Shown here one piece after another: positions 28,013-48,357 of a stretch of 64,000 bases of DNA. The notes under the pieces were generated by a model. That model was not told the origin of the DNA. It searched no databases and saw only the letters and a list, made by a program, of their open reading frames with translations. Made by a program: the position numbers and the translations under genes. The stretch comes from Pseudomonas sp. PDM18. Its GTDB lineage: Bacteria; Pseudomonadota; Gammaproteobacteria; Pseudomonadales; Pseudomonadaceae. The DNA is taken from assembly GCF_014852585.1 (NCBI RefSeq), contig NZ_JACVBX010000002.1, forward strand, positions 124,001-188,000, given 5' to 3'. Each line of letters starts with the position of its first letter. Position 1 is the stretch's first letter.

Positions 28013-28675
28013 TCAGTCCCAACCGCCGGGGCAACCCTTGCATCCCGCCATGTTGCTGCCCTGGAAGTTGCCGAAGCGCTGGCGGCTGCCGCGCAGGTCG
28101 GCGTCTTCAAGATTGGCCTCGGCCAGCTTCGCTTCCTGCAGGTTGGCGTCGCGCAGGTCGGCGCCCTTGAGGTCGGCGCGGGACAGCCAGGTCATCTCCA
28201 GGTCCGCCGCGCGCAGCGTGGCCTGGTGAAGCTTGCCGCCGCTCAGGCGGGCGAACTCCAGGTAGGCGGCGGTCAGATCCGCGCCTTGCCATTGCGCACC
28301 CTGGGCGAACAAACCCCAGGCCTGGATGGCCACCAGCCGGGAGCCGCTCAGGTCGGCGCCGCGCAGGTTGGTCTGCTGCAGGCTGGCGCGGGTGAGGTCG
28401 GCGCCGTTCAGGCGGGCCTGTTGCAGATTGGCCAGGTCCAGTTTGGCGTGGCGAAGGTCGGCTCCGGAGAGATCGGCGCCGGACAGGTTCATGCGCGTCA
28501 GGTCCTGGTTGCGCAAGTCGGCGCCGCGCAGGTCAGCATTGGGACACTGACTGTCGGGTTCGATGCGGCAGCCGGCGATGACGGTGGCCGCCTCGTCATC
28601 CACCTCCGGCGCGGATTGGCTGGTGGCGAAGGCGAGGGTGGAGAGGGGGAAGAGCAGGCAGACGAGCAGGCGCAT
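28013..28675 (-). CDS. Secreted pentapeptide-repeat protein
   Basis: 220 residues with a signal peptide (MRLLVCLLFPLSTLAFA). From about residue 45 to 200 the chain is built of A(D/N)LXX repeats (ADLRGADLRNQDL, LSGADLSGADL, ANLQQARLNGADL and so on), which should fold as a right-handed quadrilateral beta-helix. The last residues (GCKGCPGGWD) contain a Cys pair. The role is unknown. It directly follows exaA in the same direction, beyond a hairpin; I recall a pentapeptide-repeat gene beside exaA in P. aeruginosa too, which suggests a conserved link with alcohol oxidation. Confidence 0.8.
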   Translation of the reverse strand: MRLLVCLLFPLSTLAFATSQSAPEVDDEAATVIAGCRIEPDSQCPNADLRGADLRNQDLTRMNLSGADLSGADLRHAKLDLANLQQARLNGADLTRASLQQTNLRGADLSGSRLVAIQAWGLFAQGAQWQGADLTAAYLEFARLSGGKLHQATLRAADLEMTWLSRADLKGADLRDANLQEAKLAEANLEDADLRGSRQRFGNFQGSNMAGCKGCPGGWD

Positions 28676-28732: not shown

Positions 28733-30604
28733 TCAGCGACTGGCGGTCTTGTTGTCCCAGCTGGGCAGCTTGAATACCCAGAACGAACCGCCCTGGGCCA
28801 CCGGCTTGGTCAGCTCGGCCATGTCGCCGCCCCACAGCGGTACCGCACCGCCATAGCCGACGGTCACGCCGATGTACTGCTCGCCGTCCTGCTCCCAGGT
28901 GATGGGCGGGGAGACGATGCCGCTGCCGGTCTGGAACTGCCAAAGCTCCTTGCCGGTCTTCGCGTCGAAGGCCTTGAGGAAGCCTTCGCCGGTACCGGTG
29001 AACACCAGGTTGCCGGCGGTTGCCAGCACACCGGCCCAGAGCGGCAGGTGATCCTTGTATTCCCACTCGACCTTGCCGGTGGTGGGGTTCATGGCGCGCA
29101 GGGTACCGACGTGGTCGTCATACATGCGCTTGATGCGGAAGCCCATGCCCAGGTAGGCGCTGCCCTTGGCGTAGTTCACCTCCTCGGTCCAGTAGTCCTC
29201 CTTCCAGTGGTTGGCGGGGACGTAGAACAGCCCGGTGTCCTGACTGTAGGCCATGGGGTTCCAATTCTTGCCGCCGAGGAAGGGCGGCGAGACTTCCACG
29301 GCCTTGCCTTGTTTCTGCCCCGGTTCCGGCAGCGGTGGGCGCTGGCCTTCGTTCTCCACCGGGCGGCCAGTCTTCAGATCGATGTGGCTGGCCCAGGTGA
29401 TGTTGTCGACGAAGGGGAAGGCGTTCTGCAGCTTTCCATTGTTCCGGTCGACCACGTAGAAGAAGCCGTTACGGTCGGCGTGGGCGGTGGCCTTGACGAT
29501 CTTGCCGTCCTTGGCCTTGTAGTCGAACAGCACCAGTTCGTTGTTGCCGGAGAAGTCCCAGGCGTCGTTGGGCGTGTGCTGGTAGAACCACTTCACCTCG
29601 CCGGTGCTCGGGTCGACGCCGACCTGCCCTGAGGTATAGAGGCTGTCGTAGTCGTGCGGGTTGCCGCCCTTGGCGGTGCGCGCCCAGGTGTTCCACGGAC
29701 CGGGGTTGCCGGCGCCGACGATGATGGTGTTGGTCTCGGCATCGAAGCTCGCGCTCTGCCACGGGGCGCCGCCGCCGTGGCTCCAGGCTTCCACCTTGCC
29801 GGTGGGCGAGTTTTTGTCTTCCGGCCAGGACGGTGCTTTGACGTCGCCAGTGACGGTGCTGTCCTTGCCGTTCAGGCGGCCCATGTGGCCTTCGACGAAG
29901 GGCCGCATCCACACCTCTTCGCCGGTGTCCGGGTCGCGGGCGAACAGGCGGCCGACTACGCCGAACTCGTCGCCGGAGCTGCCGTGGATCAGCAGTACCT
30001 TGCCGGTCTTGCCGTCCTTCACGATGGTCGGCGCGCCGGTCATGGTGTAGCCCGCGCCGTGGTCGCCGAACTTCTTCTTCCAGACCACCTTGCCAGTCTT
30101 CTTGTTCAGCGCCACGACGGCGGCGTCGAGGGTGCCGAAGTAGATCTTGTCGCCATAGATGGCGGCGCCGCGGTTGACCACGTCGCAGCACGGGCGGATG
30201 TCGTCGGGCAAACGGTGGTTATAGGTCCACAGGCGCTTGCCGGTCCTCGCGTCGAGGGCGAACAGCCGCGAGTAGGACGCGGTGACGTAGACCACGCCGT
30301 CGCTGACGATGGCCTGGGACTCCTGGCCGCGCTGCTTCTCGTCGCCGAAGGAGTAGGACCAGGCCGGCGTCAGCTTGAACACGTTGTCGGCATTGACCTG
30401 CTTGAGCGGGCTCCAGCGCTGGGCGTTGGTGCCCATGCCGTACTGCAGCACGTCGCCGGTGGTCTTGTGGTCGTTGGCGATGTCGTCCCAGGTCACGTCT
30501 TTCGCCAGGGCGGAGCCGCCAGCGGTGAGGGCGATGGCACAAGCGAGACCGCTGAAGACGAGGTGCAGGGGGGCGAGGCGCTGGGGAGCTGTTGTTGTTC
30601 TCAT
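28733..30604 (-). CDS. exaA: PQQ-dependent ethanol dehydrogenase (quinoprotein)
   Basis: 623 residues from ATG 30604, the same length I recall for P. aeruginosa ExaA; a frame extension to 31057 crosses the promoter region and is rejected. A signal peptide (ending GGSALA-KD) exports it to the periplasm. The propeller W-motifs are clear (e.g. [23 protein letters not shown]). The vicinal disulfide next to PQQ is in [10 protein letters not shown], and the catalytic Asp is in [10 protein letters not shown]. There is no fused heme domain, so electrons go to a separate cytochrome, here ExaB encoded divergently. It oxidises primary and secondary alcohols. Confidence 0.93.
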
Positions 30605-30911: not shown

Positions 30912-31349
30912 ATGAACAACAAGAACGTGCTGTGTGGCCTGCTGTTAGTGGCCGGCCTGGGTGTTTCGGGTCTGGCCCTGTCCCACGGCAATGTGACGCC
31001 CCAGGCAGTGGATACCACGGGGCTGGAACCGCTGGGCAAGGAATGGCGCGACACCAACCCCTACCGCGAGCCCTACGCCAACCACGCCAAGGCGGTGGAG
31101 ATCGGCGCGTCGGCCTACAACCAGAACTGCGCACGCTGTCACGGCCTGGAAGCCAAGTCCGGCGGCATCGCCCCCGACCTGCGCATGCTCGACGCCGGCG
31201 CCGAGGGTGACGAGTGGTTCAAGGAGCGTGTGATCAACGGCGCGGTGCGTGATGGTGCGGTGTACATGCCGAAGATGGCCGACTTCATCAGCCAGGAAGG
31301 CCTCTGGGCGATCCGCACCTACCTGGACAGCGTGCACGTGGAAGAGTGA
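30912..31349 (+). CDS. exaB: Cytochrome c550, electron acceptor of ExaA
   Basis: 145 residues from ATG 30912 (a GTG lies one codon earlier), with GAGAGG upstream. A signal peptide ends near LALSHG. There is one heme motif, CARCH, and the Met ligand is probably in YMPKMADF. Position and length fit ExaB/PedF, which passes electrons from the PQQ dehydrogenase to the terminal oxidase. The next gene begins 5 bp after the stop, so the relay genes are probably transcribed with it. Confidence 0.88.
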
Positions 31350-31354
31350 CCGCC

Positions 31355-32254
31355 ATGCGCCAGCCCCATCTGCTGATCGGCGCGCTACTGGGCCTGGCCA
31401 TGTGCTTGCTGCTGGGGCAGGCGCAGGCAGGGGTTCGTCCCTACGAGGACATGGTTTCCAGCGGCGTGCTGCGGGTGGCCGTGTACGAGAACTTCCCGCC
31501 CTACAGCTTCATGCAGGGCGGGCAGCCGCGCGGGGTCGACATCGATCTCGCCCAGCGCCTGGCCAGCGGCCTGGGCCTGCGCGCGGAGTTCCTCTGGGTC
31601 ACGCCCGGCGAACGCCTGGATGACGACCTTCGCAACTTCATCTGGAAGGGCCATTACCTGCGCCCGGGCGTGGTCGCCGACGTGATGCTGCGCGTGCCGT
31701 ACGACCGTCAGTACGCCAACCGGCGCAACGATGTCGGCGAGTTCGCCAACGAGCAGGTAGTCATGTTCGGCCCCTACCAGCGCGAACGCTGGCAGGTGGT
31801 CAGCGATGACCGCCGGCTGTCCGAGGTGGACACCATTGCCGCCTTCCGCGAACACCCCATCGGGGTCGAGCTGGACAGCGTGCCGTCCTTCTACCTGACC
31901 TCCGTGCTGGGCGGCCAGCTCAGCCGCATGACCGTGCATTTCCCCAGCACCCAGGCCGCCTTCGACGGCATGCGCGCGGGCAAGGTGGACGCGGTGATGG
32001 CCCTGCGCGGCGAGTTGGACTGGATGCGCGCGCAAGCCGCTGACCAGCACCTGAAGAACGCCGAGAACACCTATCCCAATCTCGGCCAGCCCGAGTGGGA
32101 CATCGGCATGGCGGTGCATGAAAGCAACCGCCAGCTCTCCAATGCCCTGGATGGCGAGCTGGAGGAACTGGTGCGCAGCGGCGAGATGCAAAAGCTCTAC
32201 GCGGCCTACGGCGTGCGCTACGAACTGCCGGGGCTCTATCAGGACGTGCAGTGA
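31355..32254 (+). CDS. Quinoprotein-associated periplasmic solute-binding protein
   Basis: 299 residues. A signal peptide (GALLGLAMCLLLGQAQA) precedes a family-3 solute-binding domain: LRVAVYENFPPYSFMQGGQPRGVDIDLAQRL, with short matches only quoted here as RVAVYENFPPY and GVDIDLAQRL. This matches the putative ABC substrate-binding proteins found next to PQQ dehydrogenases (the TIGR03871-type, XoxJ/MoxJ-like group), but no ABC permease or ATPase gene is nearby. MoxJ-type proteins are thought to help mature or interact with the dehydrogenase rather than feed a transporter. I infer a similar role here. Confidence 0.8.
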   Translation: MRQPHLLIGALLGLAMCLLLGQAQAGVRPYEDMVSSGVLRVAVYENFPPYSFMQGGQPRGVDIDLAQRLASGLGLRAEFLWVTPGERLDDDLRNFIWKGHYLRPGVVADVMLRVPYDRQYANRRNDVGEFANEQVVMFGPYQRERWQVVSDDRRLSEVDTIAAFREHPIGVELDSVPSFYLTSVLGGQLSRMTVHFPSTQAAFDGMRAGKVDAVMALRGELDWMRAQAADQHLKNAENTYPNLGQPEWDIGMAVHESNRQLSNALDGELEELVRSGEMQKLYAAYGVRYELPGLYQDVQ

Positions 32255-32261
32255 GGGATAA

Positions 32262-33014
32262 ATGATGCACAGGCGCGAACTGCTGCTCGGGATCTGCGCA
32301 CTGCCGCTGCTGGCAGCGGCGGTGGAGGGCGACCCGATGCCCTCGGTGATGTGGGAGTACCACCACAAGCGCCTGCTGAATGGCGAACCCTACGTCTTCG
32401 ACGAGCGGGTGAAGCTGGGCGTGCCGCCGTTCGCCGAGGACTCCCGCCAGGTCCCGGTGGAAGTGGATGCCCGTGCCTTGCCGGGGCGCTTCGACCGGCT
32501 GCTGCTGTGGGCCGAGCTGAACCCGATTCCCCATGTGCTGACGCTCTATCCGGGCGAGCATCTGGAGCCGTTGCTGGCGGTGCGCATCCGCATCGAGCAG
32601 GCCACGCCGATCCGCGCCGCGCTGCGCGACGAGAAGGGCGTCTGGCACGTCGGCTCGGCTTGGATCGACGCCGCTGGTGGCGGCTGTACCGCGCCCAGTG
32701 TGGTGCGCGCGCAACCGGGTTGGGAGGACCGCCTCGGCCAGGTACACGGCGGCTCCTACCCCAGGGGCGAGTACAGCCGGGTGCGCCTGTCGGTGTCGCA
32801 CCCGATGGACAACGGACTGGTTGGCGGCATCCCCGAGTTCTACCTCGACCACGCCCAGCTGCGCGGGCCGGATGGGGAAGTCTTAGCCCGGCTGGACCTG
32901 TTCCCGGCGGTCAGCGAGAACCCGACCTTCACCTTCGAGGTACGCGGCCATCCCCGCACCGAACTCTGGCTGCACGACAACAATGGCAACGAATTCCAGG
33001 CCGCTCTGCGCTGA
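32262..33014 (+). CDS. Quinoprotein-associated SoxYZ-like carrier protein
   Basis: 250 residues. The N-terminus looks like a signal (RRELLLGICALPLLAAAV). The mature protein resembles a fusion of SoxY- and SoxZ-like domains: residues about 40-150 and about 155-250. Its only mature cysteine is Cys142 in AAGGGCTAPS, matching the flexible GG-C carrier arm of SoxY, although here it lies between the two domains instead of at the C-terminus. In sulfur oxidation the SoxY Cys carries covalent intermediates. What this PQQ-linked form carries is not known. It lies between the solute-binding protein and a SoxH-like hydrolase, the standard trio of this family. Confidence 0.8.
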   Translation: MMHRRELLLGICALPLLAAAVEGDPMPSVMWEYHHKRLLNGEPYVFDERVKLGVPPFAEDSRQVPVEVDARALPGRFDRLLLWAELNPIPHVLTLYPGEHLEPLLAVRIRIEQATPIRAALRDEKGVWHVGSAWIDAAGGGCTAPSVVRAQPGWEDRLGQVHGGSYPRGEYSRVRLSVSHPMDNGLVGGIPEFYLDHAQLRGPDGEVLARLDLFPAVSENPTFTFEVRGHPRTELWLHDNNGNEFQAALR

Positions 33015-33040
33015 CGCCGCCCTGTGCTGACGAGGTGCCC

Positions 33041-33970
33041 ATGCGTTTCCTCCTGATCGCCCTGGCCTGCCTGTGCCTGCCGGCACTGGCCGACCTGCAG
33101 TACCACCTCGAACCCCGGAAGATCGCCGAAGGCACCTGGCTGGTGGAAGGCGGCACCGACAACTTCGCCAAGGATAATGGCGGCGCCATCGTCAACGTCG
33201 CTTTTATCGACACCGGCGACGGTGTGCTGGTGATCGATACCGGTCCGTCGAAGCGCTACGGCGAAGCCCTGCGTGCGCTGATCCAGCAGACTACCGGCAA
33301 GCCGGTGAAGCGCGTGCTGCTGTCCCATCACCACCCCGATCACGTGCTGGGCAACCAGGCCTTCACCGACGTGCCCAACGGTGCGCTGGCCGGCACCAGC
33401 AAGCTGCTGAAGGAGCAGGGCAACGCCATGGCGGAGAACATGTATCGCCTGGTCGGCGACTGGATGCGCGGCACGGAAGTGGTACTGCCCAGCGAGACGG
33501 TGGTGCCGGGTGAGCTGCAGATGGGCAGCCACCGATTCCGCCTGGTCGGCTTGCGCGGACATACCGGCGCCGACCTGGCGATCCTTGACGAAACCACTGG
33601 CGTGCTGTTCGCCGGCGACATCGTGTTCTACCAGCGTGCGCTGACCACGCCGAACAGCCCGGGGCTGGACGTCTGGCTGGGCGATCTCGACACGCTGCAG
33701 AAACTGCCGTGGAAACTCATCGTCCCCGGCCACGGCCCAATCGCCACCGATGCCGCACCCTTTGCGCAGATGCGTGATTACCTCGGCTGGCTCGACAGCG
33801 TGATGCGCGATGGCATCGCCCAGGGCGCGGACATGAACGACCTCCTGCGCACGCCCATCCCCGAGCGCTTCGCCGGCGTCAGCCTGACGCGTTACGAACT
33901 GATCCGCAGCGTCAGTCACCTCTATCCGCGCTACGAGCAGAAGGCGCTGCCGCGCGTCGACCAGCAGTGA
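33041..33970 (+). CDS. Quinoprotein relay metallo-beta-lactamase-fold hydrolase (SoxH-like)
   Basis: 309 residues from ATG 33041 with GAGGTG upstream. A signal peptide (MRFLLIALACLCLPALA) makes it periplasmic. The zinc motif H-x-H-x-D-H is at 96-101 (HHHPDH), with later ligands in LRGHTGADL, FAGDIVF and VPGHGPI. This is the SoxH-related group found with SoxYZ-like carriers beside PQQ dehydrogenases; such genes are annotated as quinoprotein relay zinc metallohydrolases. It might release a product from the carrier Cys, by analogy with thioesterase-type MBL enzymes, but this has not been shown as far as I know. Confidence 0.83.
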   Translation: MRFLLIALACLCLPALADLQYHLEPRKIAEGTWLVEGGTDNFAKDNGGAIVNVAFIDTGDGVLVIDTGPSKRYGEALRALIQQTTGKPVKRVLLSHHHPDHVLGNQAFTDVPNGALAGTSKLLKEQGNAMAENMYRLVGDWMRGTEVVLPSETVVPGELQMGSHRFRLVGLRGHTGADLAILDETTGVLFAGDIVFYQRALTTPNSPGLDVWLGDLDTLQKLPWKLIVPGHGPIATDAAPFAQMRDYLGWLDSVMRDGIAQGADMNDLLRTPIPERFAGVSLTRYELIRSVSHLYPRYEQKALPRVDQQ

Positions 33971-34200: not shown

Positions 34201-36384
34201 ATGAGATCGATTGGCCCGCACGTGCCTTCCGTTCGCCTGCAACCCGCCCTGCGTCATTCCCTGCTGACCGCTTCGCTGCTGATGGCCGGCCTGTCCCCCA
34301 ATCTCCAGGCTGCTGAAGTCCCGGCCAACGTCGATGGCAAGCGCATTGCCGCCGCCAACAGCGAACCGGGCAACTGGATGTCCACCGGCCGCACCTACGA
34401 CGAGCAGCGCTTCAGCCCGCTGAAGAAGATTGACCAGAGCAACGTCGGTAACCTGGGCCTGGCCTGGAGCCACAAGCTGGACATCGACCGTGGCGTGGAA
34501 GCCACGCCCATCGTAGTCGATGGCGTGATGTACACCACTGGGCCTTTCTCCATCGTCTACGCGCTGGACGCCCGCACCGGCGAGCAACTGTGGAAGTACG
34601 ACCCGCAGTCCGACCGCAGCCGCGCCGGCGAAGCCTGTTGTGACGCAGTGAACCGTGGCGTGGCGGTGTGGAAGGGCAAGGTCTACGTCGGCGTACTCGA
34701 TGGACGCCTGGAGGCCATCGACGCCAAGACCGGCAAGCGCGTGTGGAGCGTCGATACCCGCAGCGATCCGTCGCGCAGCATCACCATCACCGGCGCGCCG
34801 CGCATCGTGAAGGGCAAGGTGATCATCGGCAACGGCGGCGCCGAGTTCGGTGTGCGCGGGTACATCACCGCCTACGACGCCGAGACCGGCAAGCAGGACT
34901 GGCGCTTCTTCACCGTGCCCGGCGACCCCAAGGAAATGCCCAAGGGCAAGGGCATGGAAATCGCCGCCAAGACCTGGTTCGGCGACAACTACCACAAGCA
35001 GGGCGGTGGCGGCACCGTGTGGGACTCCATGTCCTACGACCCGGAGCTGAACCTGCTGTACATCGGCGTCGGCAACGGCTCCTCGTGGAATCCGCGTATC
35101 CGCAGCGAAGGCAAGGGCGACAACCTGTTCCTCTCGTCCATCGTCGCGATCAATCCCGACAACGGCGAGTACGTCTGGCACTACCAGACCACACCCGGCG
35201 ACGCCTGGGACTACACCGCCACCCAGCACATCATGCTGGTGGACCTGGAGATCGACGGCAAACAGCGCAAGGTACTGATGCAGGCGCCGAAGAACGGCTT
35301 CTTCTATGTCATCGACCGCGCCACCGGCGAGCTGCTCTCGGCGAAGAACTTCATCCCGATCAACTGGGCCACCGGCATCGACATGAAGACCGGTCGGCCG
35401 ATCCGCAACGAGAAGGTCTCCGACTACTGGAAGGACCCGGAGAAGAAGGCGCGCCTGATCCAGCCGGCCTTCTGGGGCGCCCACGACTGGCAGCCCATGT
35501 CGTACAACCCCAACACCGGCCTGGTGTACATCCCCGCGCACATCATGTCGGCGATGTACCAGGACGTCGACGGCGCGCCGCCGCGCTCCAAGTTCAAGAG
35601 CATCTACCAGCTCGACGTCAACACCGGGATGATGCCCGAGGACCCCGAAGGCCTGCGCAAGATCGCCGACACCTGGACCGGCAAGCTGATCGCCTGGGAC
35701 CCGGTGAAGCAGGAGAAGCGCTGGGAAGTCCCCTACAGCACCATCTTCAACGGCGGCACCCTCAGCACCGCCGGCAACCTGGTGTTCGAAGGCACCGCTG
35801 ACGGTCGCGTGGTGGCCTATGCCGCCGAGACCGGCAAGAAGCTCTGGGAATCCCCGGCCAACACCGGCGTGATGGCTGCGCCGATCACCTATGAGGTGGA
35901 CGGCGAGCAGTACGTGACCTTCATGGCTGGCTGGGGCGGCGCCTTCTCCACCTTCGCCGGCGCCTTGTCGCTGCGCGCCGGGGTCAAGCCCAACGCCCAG
36001 GTGCTGACCTACAAGCTCGGCGGCACCGCCAAGCTGCCGGACATCAACTACAAGTGGGCCGACCGCAAGCCCGAGCCGCCGGCGCTGACCGGCACCACCG
36101 CGCAGATCGACCAGGGTCGCGAGCTGTTCAACTCCAGTTGCTCGCAGTGCCACGGCATCAACGCCATCAGCGGCGGCGTGGTGCCCGACCTGCGCACCCT
36201 CAGCGCGGAAAACCACCAGCGCTTCCTCGGCATCATCTACGGCGGCCGCATCCCCGACGGCATGCCGTCGTTCCAGGGCCACCTCGACCTGCAGCAGGCC
36301 GAGGCCGTGCACCAGTACCTGATCAAGCGCGCCTACGACCTCAAGGAACAACTGGCCGGCGCGCAGAAGACTGCCGCCAAGTGA
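34201..36384 (+). CDS. Quinohemoprotein alcohol dehydrogenase (PQQ plus heme c)
   Basis: 727 residues from ATG 34201 with GGAG upstream. A signal peptide (LLTASLLMAGLSPNLQA) leads into a PQQ beta-propeller with the vicinal disulfide in EACCDAVNRG, GAPRIVKGKV, the catalytic Asp in DAWDYTATQH, and WDSMSYDPELN. A C-terminal cytochrome c domain from about residue 630 has CSQCH and a probable Met ligand in DGMPSF. This is the soluble type II quinohemoprotein layout, such as 1-butanol or polyethylene-glycol dehydrogenases, able to pass electrons internally from PQQ to heme. It has its own sigma-54 promoter and is followed 22 bp later by aldA. Confidence 0.9.
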   Translation: MRSIGPHVPSVRLQPALRHSLLTASLLMAGLSPNLQAAEVPANVDGKRIAAANSEPGNWMSTGRTYDEQRFSPLKKIDQSNVGNLGLAWSHKLDIDRGVEATPIVVDGVMYTTGPFSIVYALDARTGEQLWKYDPQSDRSRAGEACCDAVNRGVAVWKGKVYVGVLDGRLEAIDAKTGKRVWSVDTRSDPSRSITITGAPRIVKGKVIIGNGGAEFGVRGYITAYDAETGKQDWRFFTVPGDPKEMPKGKGMEIAAKTWFGDNYHKQGGGGTVWDSMSYDPELNLLYIGVGNGSSWNPRIRSEGKGDNLFLSSIVAINPDNGEYVWHYQTTPGDAWDYTATQHIMLVDLEIDGKQRKVLMQAPKNGFFYVIDRATGELLSAKNFIPINWATGIDMKTGRPIRNEKVSDYWKDPEKKARLIQPAFWGAHDWQPMSYNPNTGLVYIPAHIMSAMYQDVDGAPPRSKFKSIYQLDVNTGMMPEDPEGLRKIADTWTGKLIAWDPVKQEKRWEVPYSTIFNGGTLSTAGNLVFEGTADGRVVAYAAETGKKLWESPANTGVMAAPITYEVDGEQYVTFMAGWGGAFSTFAGALSLRAGVKPNAQVLTYKLGGTAKLPDINYKWADRKPEPPALTGTTAQIDQGRELFNSSCSQCHGINAISGGVVPDLRTLSAENHQRFLGIIYGGRIPDGMPSFQGHLDLQQAEAVHQYLIKRAYDLKEQLAGAQKTAAK

Positions 36385-36406: not shown

Positions 36407-37843
36407 ATGACTGACGTGACAACCTACCAGCACTACATCGACAACCGCTTCGTCGCCGGCGAGCCGCTGATCGAGGTGCACAACCCGGCCAACGGCGAGC
36501 TGCTGGCGCGCATCCCCGAGGCCAGCGCGGCCCAGGTGGACAGCGCCATCGGCGCCGCCCGCGCGGCGCAGAAGGGCTGGGCGGCCAAGCCTGCCATCGA
36601 GCGCGCCGGCTACCTGCGCAAGATCGCCGAGAAGGTCCGTGCCAACGCGCCGCGCCTGGCGAAGATCATCACCGCCGAGCAAGGCAAGGTGCCGGCGCTG
36701 GCGGAAGTGGAAGTGAACTTCACCGCCGACTACCTCGACTACATGGCCGAGTGGGCGCGCCGCCTGGAAGGCGAAGTGCTGACCAGCGACCGTGCCGGCG
36801 AGCACATCTTCCTGCTGCGCAAACCGCTGGGCGTGGTGGCGGGCATCCTGCCGTGGAACTTCCCGTTCTTCCTCATCGCCCGGAAGATGGCGCCGGCGCT
36901 GCTGACCGGCAACACCATCGTCATCAAGCCCAGTGAAGAAACCCCGATCAACTGCTTCGAATTCGCCCGTCTGGTGGCGGAAACCGACCTGCCCACCGGT
37001 GTTTTCAACGTCGTCGGCGGCACCGGGGCCAGCGCCGGCAGCTCACTGACCAGCCACGCCGGGGTGGACCTGATCAGCTTCACCGGCAGTGTCGCTACCG
37101 GCTCGCGGATCATGGCGGCGGCCGCGCCGAACATCACCAAGCTGAACCTGGAGTTGGGTGGCAAGGCGCCGGCCATCGTCCTCGCCGACGCCGACCTGGA
37201 GCTGGCGGTAAACGCCATCAAGGCCTCGCGGGTGATCAATACCGGGCAGGTGTGCAACTGCGCCGAGCGCGTCTACGTGCAGCGCCAGGTGGCCGACCAG
37301 TTCATCGAGAAGATCGCCGCCGCCATGGCCGCCACCCGCTTCGGCGACCCGAACGTGCAGGCGGACCTGGACATGGGCCCGCTGGTCAATCGCATTGGTC
37401 TGGACAAGGTCGCGCAAATGGTTCGTACGGCGACCGGGCAGGGCGCCCAGATCATCACCGGTGGCGCCGTCGCCGACCTCGGTAAGGGCTTCCACTACCA
37501 GCCCACCGTGCTCGCCGGCTGCAAGGGCGACATGGAGATCATGCGCAAGGAAATCTTCGGTCCGGTGCTGCCGATCCAGGTGGTGGACGACCTCGACGAA
37601 GCGATCGCCCTGGCCAATGACAGCGATTACGGCCTGACCTCGTCGATCTACACCCGCAACCTCAGCGCCGCGCTCAAGGCCAGCCGCGAGCTGGACTTCG
37701 GCGAGACCTACATCAACCGCGAGAACTTCGAGGCCATGCAGGGTTTCCATGCCGGCACCCGCAAGTCCGGTATCGGCGGCGCGGATGGCAAGCATGGGTT
37801 GTATGAGTACACGCATACGCATGTGGTTTATGCGCAGGAGTGA
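36407..37843 (+). CDS. aldA: AldA-type aldehyde dehydrogenase
   Basis: 478 residues, nearly the length of E. coli AldA (479), and strikingly alike in sequence, e.g. GILPWNFPFFLIARKMAPAL, LELGGKAPAIV with the general-base Glu, NTGQVCNCAERVYVQ with the catalytic Cys, and FEAMQGFHAG near the end. AldA oxidises lactaldehyde and glycolaldehyde with NAD. There is no signal peptide. It lies 22 bp after the quinohemoprotein gene, so it probably finishes the oxidation of aldehydes made from diols or alcohols. The exaC aldehyde dehydrogenase found at this place in P. aeruginosa is absent here. Confidence 0.88.
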   Translation: MTDVTTYQHYIDNRFVAGEPLIEVHNPANGELLARIPEASAAQVDSAIGAARAAQKGWAAKPAIERAGYLRKIAEKVRANAPRLAKIITAEQGKVPALAEVEVNFTADYLDYMAEWARRLEGEVLTSDRAGEHIFLLRKPLGVVAGILPWNFPFFLIARKMAPALLTGNTIVIKPSEETPINCFEFARLVAETDLPTGVFNVVGGTGASAGSSLTSHAGVDLISFTGSVATGSRIMAAAAPNITKLNLELGGKAPAIVLADADLELAVNAIKASRVINTGQVCNCAERVYVQRQVADQFIEKIAAAMAATRFGDPNVQADLDMGPLVNRIGLDKVAQMVRTATGQGAQIITGGAVADLGKGFHYQPTVLAGCKGDMEIMRKEIFGPVLPIQVVDDLDEAIALANDSDYGLTSSIYTRNLSAALKASRELDFGETYINRENFEAMQGFHAGTRKSGIGGADGKHGLYEYTHTHVVYAQE

Positions 37844-45515: not shown

Positions 45516-46679
45516 ATGTCCCACGAGCTCAGCCAGCTGCGCAAATTCGTCTCGCCAGAGATCATTTTCGGTGCCGGATGCCGGCACAATGTCGCCAATT
45601 ACGTGAAAACCTTCGGCGCCCGCAAGGTCCTGGTCGTGTCTGATCCCGGTGTAGTAGCCGCCGGCTGGGTTGCCGATATCGAGGCCAGCCTGGCCGCCCA
45701 GGACATTTCCTTCTGCCGTTACACCGATGTGTCGCCCAACCCGCGCGTGGAAGAAGTCATGCGCGGCGCCGACGTCTACCGCAGCGAAGGCTGCAACGTG
45801 ATAGTCGCGGTCGGCGGCGGCAGTCCGATGGACTGCGCCAAGGGCATTGGCATCGTCGCCGCCCACGGCCGCAATATCCTCGAGTTCGAGGGCGTGGACA
45901 CCCTGCGCGTGCCCAGTCCGCCGCTGATCCTGATCCCCACCACCGCCGGCACCTCGGCCGACGTCTCGCAGTTCGTGATCATCTCCAACCAGGACGAACG
46001 GATGAAGTTCTCCATCGTCAGCAAGGCGGTGGTTCCCGACGTGTCGCTGATCGACCCGGAAACCACCCTGACCATGGACCCGTTCCTTTCCGCCTGCACC
46101 GGCATCGACGCGCTGGTGCACGCCATCGAGGCCTTCGTTTCCACCGGCCACGGCCCTCTCACCGACCCTCACGCGCTGGAGGCCATGCGGCTGATCAACG
46201 GCAACCTGGTGCAGATGATCGCCAATCCGGCGGACATCGCCCTGCGCGAGAAGATCATGCTGGGCAGCATGCAGGCCGGGCTGGCCTTCTCCAACGCGAT
46301 CCTTGGCGCGGTGCATGCCATGTCCCACAGCCTGGGCGGCTACCTCGACCTGCCGCACGGGCTGTGCAACGCCGTGTTGGTGGAGCACGTGGTGGCCTTC
46401 AACTACAGCGCGGCACCCGAGCGCTTCAAGGTGATCGCCGAGACCTTCGGCATCGACTGCCGTGGCATGAACCATGCGCAGATCCGCCAGCGCCTGGTGG
46501 AACACCTGATTGCCCTGAAGAACGCCGTGGGCTTCCACGAAAGCCTCGGCTTGCATGGCGTGGGCAGTTCCGACATTCCATTCCTCTCGCGCCACGCGAT
46601 GCAGGACCCGTGCATCCTCACCAACCCTCGCGAGTCCAGCCAGCGCGACGTCGAGGTGGTATATGGCGAGGCCCTCTGA
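45516..46679 (+). CDS. ercA: Iron-containing alcohol dehydrogenase ErcA
   Basis: 387 residues from ATG 45516, in frame but without a strong ribosome site. NAD-binding GGGSPMDCAKG and the metal region D-x3-H in IDALVHAIEAF, with further His in AMSHSLGGYLDLPHGLCNAV, mark the family. In P. aeruginosa ErcA belongs to the network that controls ethanol oxidation and pqq genes, and it may act as a sensor through its catalytic turnover. It overlaps ercS by 17 bases. The 122-bp gap before it could hold its own promoter. Confidence 0.88.
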   Translation: MSHELSQLRKFVSPEIIFGAGCRHNVANYVKTFGARKVLVVSDPGVVAAGWVADIEASLAAQDISFCRYTDVSPNPRVEEVMRGADVYRSEGCNVIVAVGGGSPMDCAKGIGIVAAHGRNILEFEGVDTLRVPSPPLILIPTTAGTSADVSQFVIISNQDERMKFSIVSKAVVPDVSLIDPETTLTMDPFLSACTGIDALVHAIEAFVSTGHGPLTDPHALEAMRLINGNLVQMIANPADIALREKIMLGSMQAGLAFSNAILGAVHAMSHSLGGYLDLPHGLCNAVLVEHVVAFNYSAAPERFKVIAETFGIDCRGMNHAQIRQRLVEHLIALKNAVGFHESLGLHGVGSSDIPFLSRHAMQDPCILTNPRESSQRDVEVVYGEAL

Positions 46680-48357
46680 CGAGCAGCAGCAACAGGCCCT
46701 GGCCGGGCTGCTCGGGCTGGGCAGCCATTCCGCGCGCAAGAGCCACTACCCCGAGCTGGTGGCGCGTCTGGACGAGCTGGAAGCCGAGCGCAACCGCTAC
46801 AAATGGCTGTTCGAGCACGCCGTCCACGGCATCTTCCAGGCCAGCCTGAGCCAGGGCCTGCGCGCCGCGAATCCGGCGCTGGCGCGGATGCTCGGCTACG
46901 ACGATCCGCAACAGGTGTTGTGGAACCTGCAGGACATGGCCAGCCAGCTGTTCGTCGGCGGCGAGGCGGAGATGCGCCGCATCCGCGCGTTGCTGCGCGA
47001 GCGCGACGGCCTGTTCGGCTACGAGACGCGCCTGCGCCGCCGCGATGGCAGTCACGTCATCGTCCTCATGAACCTGCTGATCAAGCCTGATGAAGAAGGC
47101 CTGGTGGAAGGCTTCGTCGCCGACATCACCGAACGCGTTCAGGCCCAGCAGCGCCTGCAGAGCCTGAACGAAGAACTGGAGCAGCGCGTCGCCGAACGTA
47201 CCCGCGAGCTGGAAGGGTTGAACCAGCAACTGCGCGAGGCCCGCGACGCCGCCGAGGCCGCCAACAACAGCAAGGACAAGTACCTGGCGGCCGCCAGTCA
47301 CGACTTGCTGCAACCGCTGAATGCCGCGCGCCTGCTGGTTTCTACCCTGCGTGAGCGCAAGCTGCCGAATGCCGAGCAGGTGCTGGTGGAGCGCACGCAC
47401 CAGGCGCTGGAGGGCGCCGAGGACCTGCTCACCGACCTGCTGGAAATCGCTCGCCTGGACCAGAGCGCAATCCGCCCGGACCTGGAGGTGTACCCGCTGG
47501 ACGAACTGCTCGGCCCGCTGGTCTCGGAGTTCGACGAAGTGGCCCGCGCCGCCGGGCTTCGCCTGCGCTCACGGATTCCCTCACTGGCAGTGCGCACCGA
47601 TCACCGCCTGCTGTCACGCATCCTGCGCAACTTCCTCAGCAATGCCTGCCGCTACACCGAGCGCGGCAGCGTGATGCTTGGTGCGCGCCGGCGCGGCGAG
47701 AACGTCAGGCTGGAAGTCTGGGACACCGGGCGCGGGATTCCGGCGGACCAGCTGGAAGCCATCTTCCTCGAGTTCAACCAGCTCGACGCCGGCCGCGCGT
47801 CCAATCGCCGGGGCGTCGGGCTGGGGCTGGCGATCGTCGACCGCATCGCCGGAATCCTCGGTTGCCGGGTGCAGGTGCGCTCGGCGCCGGGGCGTGGTTC
47901 TGTGTTTTCCCTCGAGGTGCCGCTGGTGCGCGACCTGCCGCAGCAAGCGTTGGCGGAAAACGGCCCGCGCCCGGTGACCGGCGACCCGCTGCCGGGCCGG
48001 CGCCTGTTGGTGATCGACAACGAGGAAGCGATCCTTGCCAGCATGGCGGCGCTACTTGGGCAATGGGGCTGCGAGGTACTGGTGGCGACCAGCTATGAGG
48101 AAGCGCTGCAGGCGCTGGACGGCAAGGCGCCGGAGGTGATCCTGGCCGACTACCACCTCGACCTTGGTCGCACGGGTTGCGAGGCGGTTCGCGGGCTGCG
48201 CGAGTATTTCCGCCGCGAGCTGCCGGCGCTGATGATCACTGCCGACCGCAGCGACGACTGCCGTCGCGCCCTGCAGCGGCTGGGGATGCCGCTGCTGAAC
48301 AAACCGGTGAAGCCGGGCAAGCTGCGCGCGGCGCTGAGTGTGCTGCTGACCCATTGA
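46663..48357 (+). CDS. ercS: Hybrid sensor kinase ErcS
   Basis: 564 residues from ATG 46663, overlapping ercA. There is no membrane segment, so it is cytoplasmic. A PAS domain (about 40-160: RYKWLFEHAVHGIFQAS, EGFVADITERVQ) is followed by a short coiled coil, the HisKA box with ASHDLLQPLNAA (His about 212), and an ATPase domain (NFLSNACRYT, DTGRGIP, GVGLGLAIVDRI). A C-terminal receiver (about 446-560) has its Asp in ILADYHLD. The overlap with ercA says the two act together, ErcA activity probably being read by ErcS. Confidence 0.87.
   Translation: MARPSDEQQQQALAGLLGLGSHSARKSHYPELVARLDELEAERNRYKWLFEHAVHGIFQASLSQGLRAANPALARMLGYDDPQQVLWNLQDMASQLFVGGEAEMRRIRALLRERDGLFGYETRLRRRDGSHVIVLMNLLIKPDEEGLVEGFVADITERVQAQQRLQSLNEELEQRVAERTRELEGLNQQLREARDAAEAANNSKDKYLAAASHDLLQPLNAARLLVSTLRERKLPNAEQVLVERTHQALEGAEDLLTDLLEIARLDQSAIRPDLEVYPLDELLGPLVSEFDEVARAAGLRLRSRIPSLAVRTDHRLLSRILRNFLSNACRYTERGSVMLGARRRGENVRLEVWDTGRGIPADQLEAIFLEFNQLDAGRASNRRGVGLGLAIVDRIAGILGCRVQVRSAPGRGSVFSLEVPLVRDLPQQALAENGPRPVTGDPLPGRRLLVIDNEEAILASMAALLGQWGCEVLVATSYEEALQALDGKAPEVILADYHLDLGRTGCEAVRGLREYFRRELPALMITADRSDDCRRALQRLGMPLLNKPVKPGKLRAALSVLLTH

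Follow-up and report, generated by a model that had tools for sequence, protein, structure and literature searches.

A SoxYZ-like carrier, a SoxH-like hydrolase and a CX3CW rhodanese-like protein as a candidate helper unit for soluble PQQ alcohol dehydrogenases

Dehydrogenases that depend on pyrroloquinoline quinone (PQQ), lanthanide-dependent ones included, drive much of the bacterial oxidation of alcohols and methanol. We analysed a stretch of 64,000 nucleotides from Pseudomonas sp. PDM18 (the window; plain positions refer to it) in which genes for PQQ alcohol dehydrogenases (ADHs) lie beside the genes of a fused SoxYZ-like carrier and a SoxH-like hydrolase, together called the relay here. 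As judged from the distribution of the genes over genomes, carrier and hydrolase very probably form one unit with the rhodanese-like CXXCW protein, and the same comparisons give good support to soluble PQQ-ADHs of either metal type, calcium (Ca) or lanthanide, as partners of the relay. A first-pass annotation of the window had joined carrier and hydrolase with the periplasmic binding protein PedG instead; PedG turned out to be separable from the relay, and the third co-inherited partner is the CXXCW protein, which is encoded outside the window. The helper unit is thus delimited as CXXCW protein, carrier and SoxH, not as the window's trio, and PedG is to be treated apart.

Results

The carrier gene (32262..33014, plus strand) encodes 250 residues that match TIGR04557, the quinoprotein dehydrogenase-associated SoxYZ-like carrier, with 196.6 bits (cut-off 140) as well as the Pfam domains SoxY (84.9 bits) and SoxZ (39.3 bits), so that the SoxYZ-like assignment of the first-pass annotation stands; the cut-offs of the curated SoxY and SoxZ equivalogs were not reached (38.7 versus 125 and 28.3 versus 76 bits). 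The protein is 98% identical to the carrier of P. nitroreducens. The next gene (33041..33970, plus strand) encodes the SoxH-like protein, a metallo-beta-lactamase-fold hydrolase of 309 residues that matches TIGR04558 (quinoprotein relay system zinc metallohydrolase 1) with 417.6 bits at a cut-off of 300. Its ATG lies at 33041, and the list of open reading frames (ORFs) nests it in a longer ORF from 32351. Upstream of both lies PedG (31355..32254, plus strand; the ORF caller starts it at a GTG at 31346), a putatively XoxJ/MxaJ-like periplasmic binding protein of solute-binding protein (SBP) family 3 with a match to Pfam SBP_bac_3 and no specific name in NCBIfam. All three ORFs follow one another on the plus strand, as had been claimed, with gaps of 7 bases between PedG and carrier and 26 bases between carrier and SoxH; their export is predicted from N-termini judged by eye. 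By sequence, the three products correspond to proteins already known from the ped cluster, PedG (PP_2676), SoxYZ-like carrier (PP_2677) and SoxH-like hydrolase (PP_2678). A 2026 review treats the same genes of Pseudomonas putida KT2440 as PedG, PP_2677 and PP_2678 and groups PP_2677 and PP_2678 with the rhodanese-like PP_2666 (PMC12997753). In the literature searched, as far as the articles were available, this review alone discusses the three proteins together. A term search of the main texts gave no carrier terms in PMC7391723 and no 'sox' term in PMC11520305.

The distribution of the genes was followed in two samples, 299 genomes of the window's phylum and 178 Pseudomonadaceae genomes. Counting as carrier genomes those with a match above the cut-off and free of internal stops, we found 39 among the 299; 11 further genomes exceeded the cut-off with internal stops and were taken, without individual checking, as having adjacent soxY and soxZ genes. 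A SoxH homologue (E<=1e-40) is present in 39/39 carrier genomes and also in nine other genomes. It lies within 1 kb of 39 of the 47 carrier genes of the phylum sample, 36 times on the same strand, and carrier is followed by SoxH in 79 of 80 named loci; with this adjacency a chance arrangement is not in question. The CXXCW family TIGR03865 exceeded its cut-off in 35/39 carrier genomes compared with 0/41 carrier-less genomes with a PQQ-ADH, the searches for TIGR03864 and TIGR03865 covering 80 of the 83 ADH genomes (left out were G255, G269 and G295, all with haem-fused ADHs only). Among the 178 Pseudomonadaceae the carrier set and the CXXCW set are identical, 78 and 78 genomes, although in six of the pairs a distance of more than 100 kb separates the two genes on one contig, and in 12 they sit on separate contigs. 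The window's own genome (G000) belongs to the scattered type: its CXXCW gene (G000:C22:459353-459829; 217.3 bits, cut-off 128.05) lies 302 kb away from the relay. Carrier-less ADH genomes occur in five of the ten relay families, and none of them has a CXXCW gene above the cut-off. Two genomes of the same genus without carrier, G403 and G058, contain partial CXXCW matches only (G403:C204:13589-13849, 84.9 bits; G058:C1:4714213-4714422, 40.7 bits), possibly signs of joint loss; the one in G058 lies about 1 kb from a TIGR03864 gene, encoding an ABC ATPase, as does the full CXXCW gene in G000. The motif that gives the family its name is in fact CX3CW and was invariant in the 22 sequences read (of 39 places), and one CXXCW protein matched the Pfam rhodanese domain (36.4 bits).

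To which dehydrogenase this unit belongs can be read from the ADH survey, which comprised 150 listed ADH sequences from 83 genomes with at most four candidates scored per genome; each was read for its metal motif and for adjacent cysteines, and class names such as ExaF and XoxF stand here for motifs and not for branches of a tree. In the phylum sample 83/299 genomes have a PQQ-ADH above the cut-off; these include every one of the 39 carrier genomes (Fisher 6e-26, genomes treated as independent), which agrees with the co-occurrence that the first-pass annotation had proposed to look for. The same is true for 78/78 carrier genomes of the Pseudomonadaceae, and the window's genome has three such matches at E<=1e-150. 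Among the matches listed, the carrier occurs in 39/60 genomes with a soluble ADH versus 0/22 genomes with haem-fused ADHs only. A lanthanide-type ADH was listed for 38/39 carrier genomes and for 21/44 carrier-less ADH genomes, and SoxH type 1 goes with ExaF/PedH-type motifs in 15/16 genomes, type 2 with XoxF-type motifs in 21/23. These numbers speak for a unit specific to lanthanide-dependent enzymes that would act in metal insertion or cofactor stabilization, as has been proposed for lanthanide-using conditions (PMC12997753). We consider this quite improbable, and as a full account it was rejected. The lanthanide motif is present in 69 of the 78 Pseudomonadaceae carrier genomes (and in 20 of 36 carrier-less ADH genomes) and absent in nine, all of them with an ADH match as long as ExaA; for the 25 family genomes that were searched again the ADH type was taken from match length and score, not from the sequence. 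One genome (G054) carries the relay and the CXXCW gene with only Ca-type and haem-fused ADHs listed, and three Rhodobacterales plasmids, read without their chromosomes, carry CXXCW, PedF, carrier, SoxH and a Ca-type (ExaA-type) ADH in this order. The nine genomes and the plasmids point to soluble ADHs as the partner, whether of Ca or of lanthanide type. In one family (f45) six relay genomes of this sample (G035, G111, G149, G174, G185 and G281) contain PQQ-ADH-like proteins with the motif SWDWDEV and QL in place of the adjacent cysteines.

The adjacent cysteines themselves offer another reading, in which the unit makes or remakes their disulfide during maturation of the PQQ enzymes, as suggested in PMC12997753. 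A CX3C pair together with a carrier thiol would fit thiol-disulfide exchange, and all 39 carrier genomes own at least one ADH with adjacent cysteines. However, the pair is also found in 42/42 haem-fused ADHs among the matches listed, while 22/22 genomes with such ADHs only lack the carrier, as do 21 genomes with lanthanide-type enzymes that have adjacent cysteines; moreover, forming a disulfide needs no hydrolase. Plain disulfide formation was therefore rejected as a full account, and a maturation role of this kind appears quite unlikely. Finally, the unit could clear inhibitory sulfur compounds such as sulfite, thiosulfate or persulfides from the periplasm before PQQ adducts form, a general detoxification and not a service to the enzyme. 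A Sox-type carrier with a rhodanese-like protein would suit this task, and thiosulfate is reported to inhibit growth of Hyphomicrobium on methanol (cited in PMC12997753). General detoxification nevertheless seems unlikely to us, since in either survey the relay never occurs without a PQQ-ADH and is absent where the PQQ-ADHs listed are haem-fused only; in addition, a search of the window's genome with the carrier model gave a single match, and no second one or separate SoxY came into sight.

The carrier cysteine was placed correctly by the first-pass annotation: Cys142 (codon 32685..32687, plus strand) lies in GGGCTAPS and aligns with the arm cysteine (GGC) of SoxY. It is invariant in 41/41 carrier sequences (read from 41 of the 47 carrier genes of the phylum sample), and in 40 of these, the window's included, it is the only cysteine among the last 215 residues; a second cysteine of the window's carrier sits in the presumed signal peptide. 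The first of the two domains adopts the fold of SoxY. The loop with Cys142 joins the SoxY-like and the SoxZ-like domain, and residues 141-145 have a predicted local distance difference test (pLDDT) score below 50. The N-terminus (32262-32300) carries an RR pair resembling a twin-arginine translocation (Tat) signal; a loose RR pattern is present in 8/41 carriers only, including this one. Another genome (G204) contains three carrier genes above the cut-off, one of which (C1:2837285-2838961) has as its neighbour a type-2 SoxH in which most of the metal ligands are lost.

The HHHPDH motif reported by the first-pass annotation (codons 33326..33343, plus strand) was found to be the HxHxDH zinc motif at residues 96-101 of the SoxH-like protein, and with H174, D193 and H231 the set of metal ligands is complete. 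Such a site next to a carrier thiol and to ADH genes could serve a carbon cargo, which would be the carbon form of the carrier-and-release idea of the first-pass annotation: the carrier would bind the aldehyde product as thiohemiacetal, the PQQ enzyme would oxidize it to the thioester and SoxH would hydrolyse it to the acid, a periplasmic counterpart to the glutathione-dependent oxidation of aldehydes. SoxH is weakly similar to glyoxalase II (TIGR03413, 31.3 bits, cut-off 200.8), although no NCBIfam family other than TIGR04558 reaches its cut-off, and it matches the structure entry 8d2z with 64.4 bits. We regard a carbon cargo as very unlikely, because the co-inherited third partner is rhodanese-like, which points to sulfur, because one SoxH clade no longer has an intact metal site, and because the cysteine loop, as modelled, is tethered at both ends and would hardly reach the active site of an ADH.

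The ligands are complete in 89/93 type-1 rows (the window counted twice and 79 rows coming from named Pseudomonas-type loci) and in 25/26 type-2 rows. The four deviating type-1 proteins, from genomes of the window's class, share the changes H to N, H to Y and D to G; the same replacements occur in two proteins of Azospirillum whose annotation reads zinc metallohydrolase 1 (L256 8941-9870 and L257 8917-9867). All six fall into one clade (support 91/91) with ordinary branch lengths. A single origin and ordinary branch lengths argue for a SoxH form that is conserved and not decaying, so that zinc hydrolysis by SoxH would not be universal. The phylum sample has 16 genomes with type-1 SoxH, and among the 13 of them that were compared, the four with ligand-less SoxH are exactly the four carrier genomes without CXXCW. 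As the ligand loss has one origin in the tree, this match does not count as independent evidence, and a coupling of the two losses is further weakened by Azospirillum thermophilum, where ligand-less SoxH and a CXXCW gene stand in one cluster; the record holds three CXXCW-type and two carrier-type places, and the CXXCW gene of the cluster might serve another carrier copy. A plasmid search with type-1 SoxH yielded 23 records, ten of which were opened; we take their genera to be Alphaproteobacteria, which leaves no record from relatives of G019 or G274. We know of no assayed substrate of a TIGR04558-type SoxH.

PedG was rejected as a member of the relay since each occurs alone. PedG without relay was found in G058, where PedG and ExaF remain about 0.4 kb apart, and relay without PedG in G054 and in 7 of 77 informative named loci (read as loci, not as whole genomes). 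In the locus comparison PedG accompanies the lanthanide-type ADH gene, and from this co-occurrence we judge it to be a partner of the lanthanide-type ADH, as XoxJ is of XoxF.

The window order is PedD(-), ExaA(-), PedF(+), PedG(+), carrier(+), SoxH-like(+), quinohaemoprotein ADH(+), aldehyde dehydrogenase(+) and a sigma-54 regulator(-), onward to pqqE. The PedD-like pentapeptide-repeat protein (28013..28675, minus strand; Pentapeptide, 147 bits) and the ExaA/PedE-like soluble Ca-type PQQ-ADH (28733..30604, minus strand; WDFSGNNE, vicinal cysteines; TIGR03075, 785.3 bits) are followed by the cytochrome c550 PedF/ExaB (30912..31349, plus strand; TIGR04494, 212.9 bits, cut-off 122). The second PQQ dehydrogenase of the first-pass annotation does exist at 34201..36384 (plus strand; WDYTATQ; TIGR03075, 668.7 bits), but it is a quinohaemoprotein ADH with a C-terminal cytochrome c domain (Cytochrome_CBB3), not PedH; behind it lies an aldehyde dehydrogenase in the PedI/AldB-II position (36407..37843, plus strand). 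An ExaF-like, lanthanide-type ADH gene comes next after SoxH in 6/6 closest named loci (for example L032 9065-10852) and is missing here between 33970 and 34201; this genome has its ExaF-like gene on a different contig (G000 C2:250948), upstream of an aldehyde dehydrogenase gene, which looks like a moved block. Downstream of pqqE, at 46555-48357, lies a hybrid histidine kinase of the NahK/ErcS family; ErcS-type kinases are listed within ped/exa clusters (PMC12997753).

Discussion

We propose that carrier, hydrolase and CX3CW rhodanese-like protein would act as an accessory periplasmic unit for thiol or sulfur transfer that serves soluble PQQ-ADHs of either metal type. The CX3CW pair and Cys142, which sits on a flexible loop, would exchange a sulfur- or thiol-linked group, and the metal site of SoxH would cut this group off. 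The dithiol of the rhodanese-like protein, the single carrier cysteine and the metal site of the hydrolase together suggest such a cargo. The tie of the relay to soluble PQQ-ADHs suggests the enzyme or its cofactor as the thing served: most likely the unit would act in maturation, protection or repair of the dehydrogenase (of PQQ or the reactive disulfide) and would not carry alcohol carbon. Taken jointly, unit, partner and sulfur or thiol reading are a tentative proposal to which we give a little less than an even chance, with the cargo and the direction of the relay inferred. A narrower version, dedicated repair of the quinoprotein cofactor, in which the CX3CW protein strips a sulfur or thiol adduct from PQQ or the enzyme and passes it to Cys142 for cleavage by SoxH, is very doubtful.

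Several observations weigh against the proposed transfer unit. To our knowledge no cargo has been described, and one SoxH clade does without three zinc ligands. CXXCW is missing in 4/39 carrier genomes; a further CXXCW protein stays just under the Pfam rhodanese cut-off (21.8 versus 22.2), and the partial match in G058 is little above the weak rhodanese matches of other genomes (30-36 bits). The P-values treat genomes as independent and ignore relatedness. The 21 of 44 carrier-less ADH genomes in which a lanthanide-type ADH was listed indicate that the unit is dispensable, and transposon phenotypes on alcohols without lanthanides are minimal (PMC12997753).

The idea of the first-pass annotation, a covalent carrier whose cargo a hydrolase releases in cooperation with PQQ dehydrogenases, keeps its support from the co-occurrence with PQQ-ADHs and the invariant cysteine; release by a zinc hydrolase, on the other hand, is not general in view of the ligand-less clade. 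Its statement that no chemistry has been assigned holds, although published proposals exist, namely disulfide formation, cofactor stabilization and PQQ protection (PMC12997753). If the narrower version, dedicated cofactor repair, were true, a Sox-derived periplasmic sulfur relay would have been turned to enzyme quality control and not to energy gain, and in a later branch the hydrolase would have become a non-zinc partner protein. Relatives without the whole unit and the clade with an incomplete SoxH zinc site constitute natural experiments.

Compared with known systems, the window is closest in arrangement to the ped cluster of P. putida KT2440, with which it shares the order pedE-pedF-pedG-SoxYZ-like-SoxH-like and the same families (table in PMC12997753). 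It differs in the quinohaemoprotein ADH gene after SoxH, in the ExaF-like gene on another contig and in the distant CXXCW gene. With SoxYZ of the Sox system the carrier has in common the SoxY and SoxZ domains, the SoxY fold and an arm cysteine at the equal place. SoxY of the Sox system bears a free C-terminal GGCGG arm, whereas in the carrier the two domains are fused and Cys142 of 250 residues sits in a GGGCTAPS loop tethered between them, with the SoxZ-like domain following. Between PedG and the XoxJ/MxaJ proteins of methanol dehydrogenases sequence identity is low, 18% over the fold alignment, and many ordinary SBPs score equally. SoxH shares with metallo-beta-lactamase-fold hydrolases (glyoxalase II, B1 lactamases and 8d2z) the ligand pattern HxHxDH, H, D, H, and its matches to them in hidden Markov model searches are weak.

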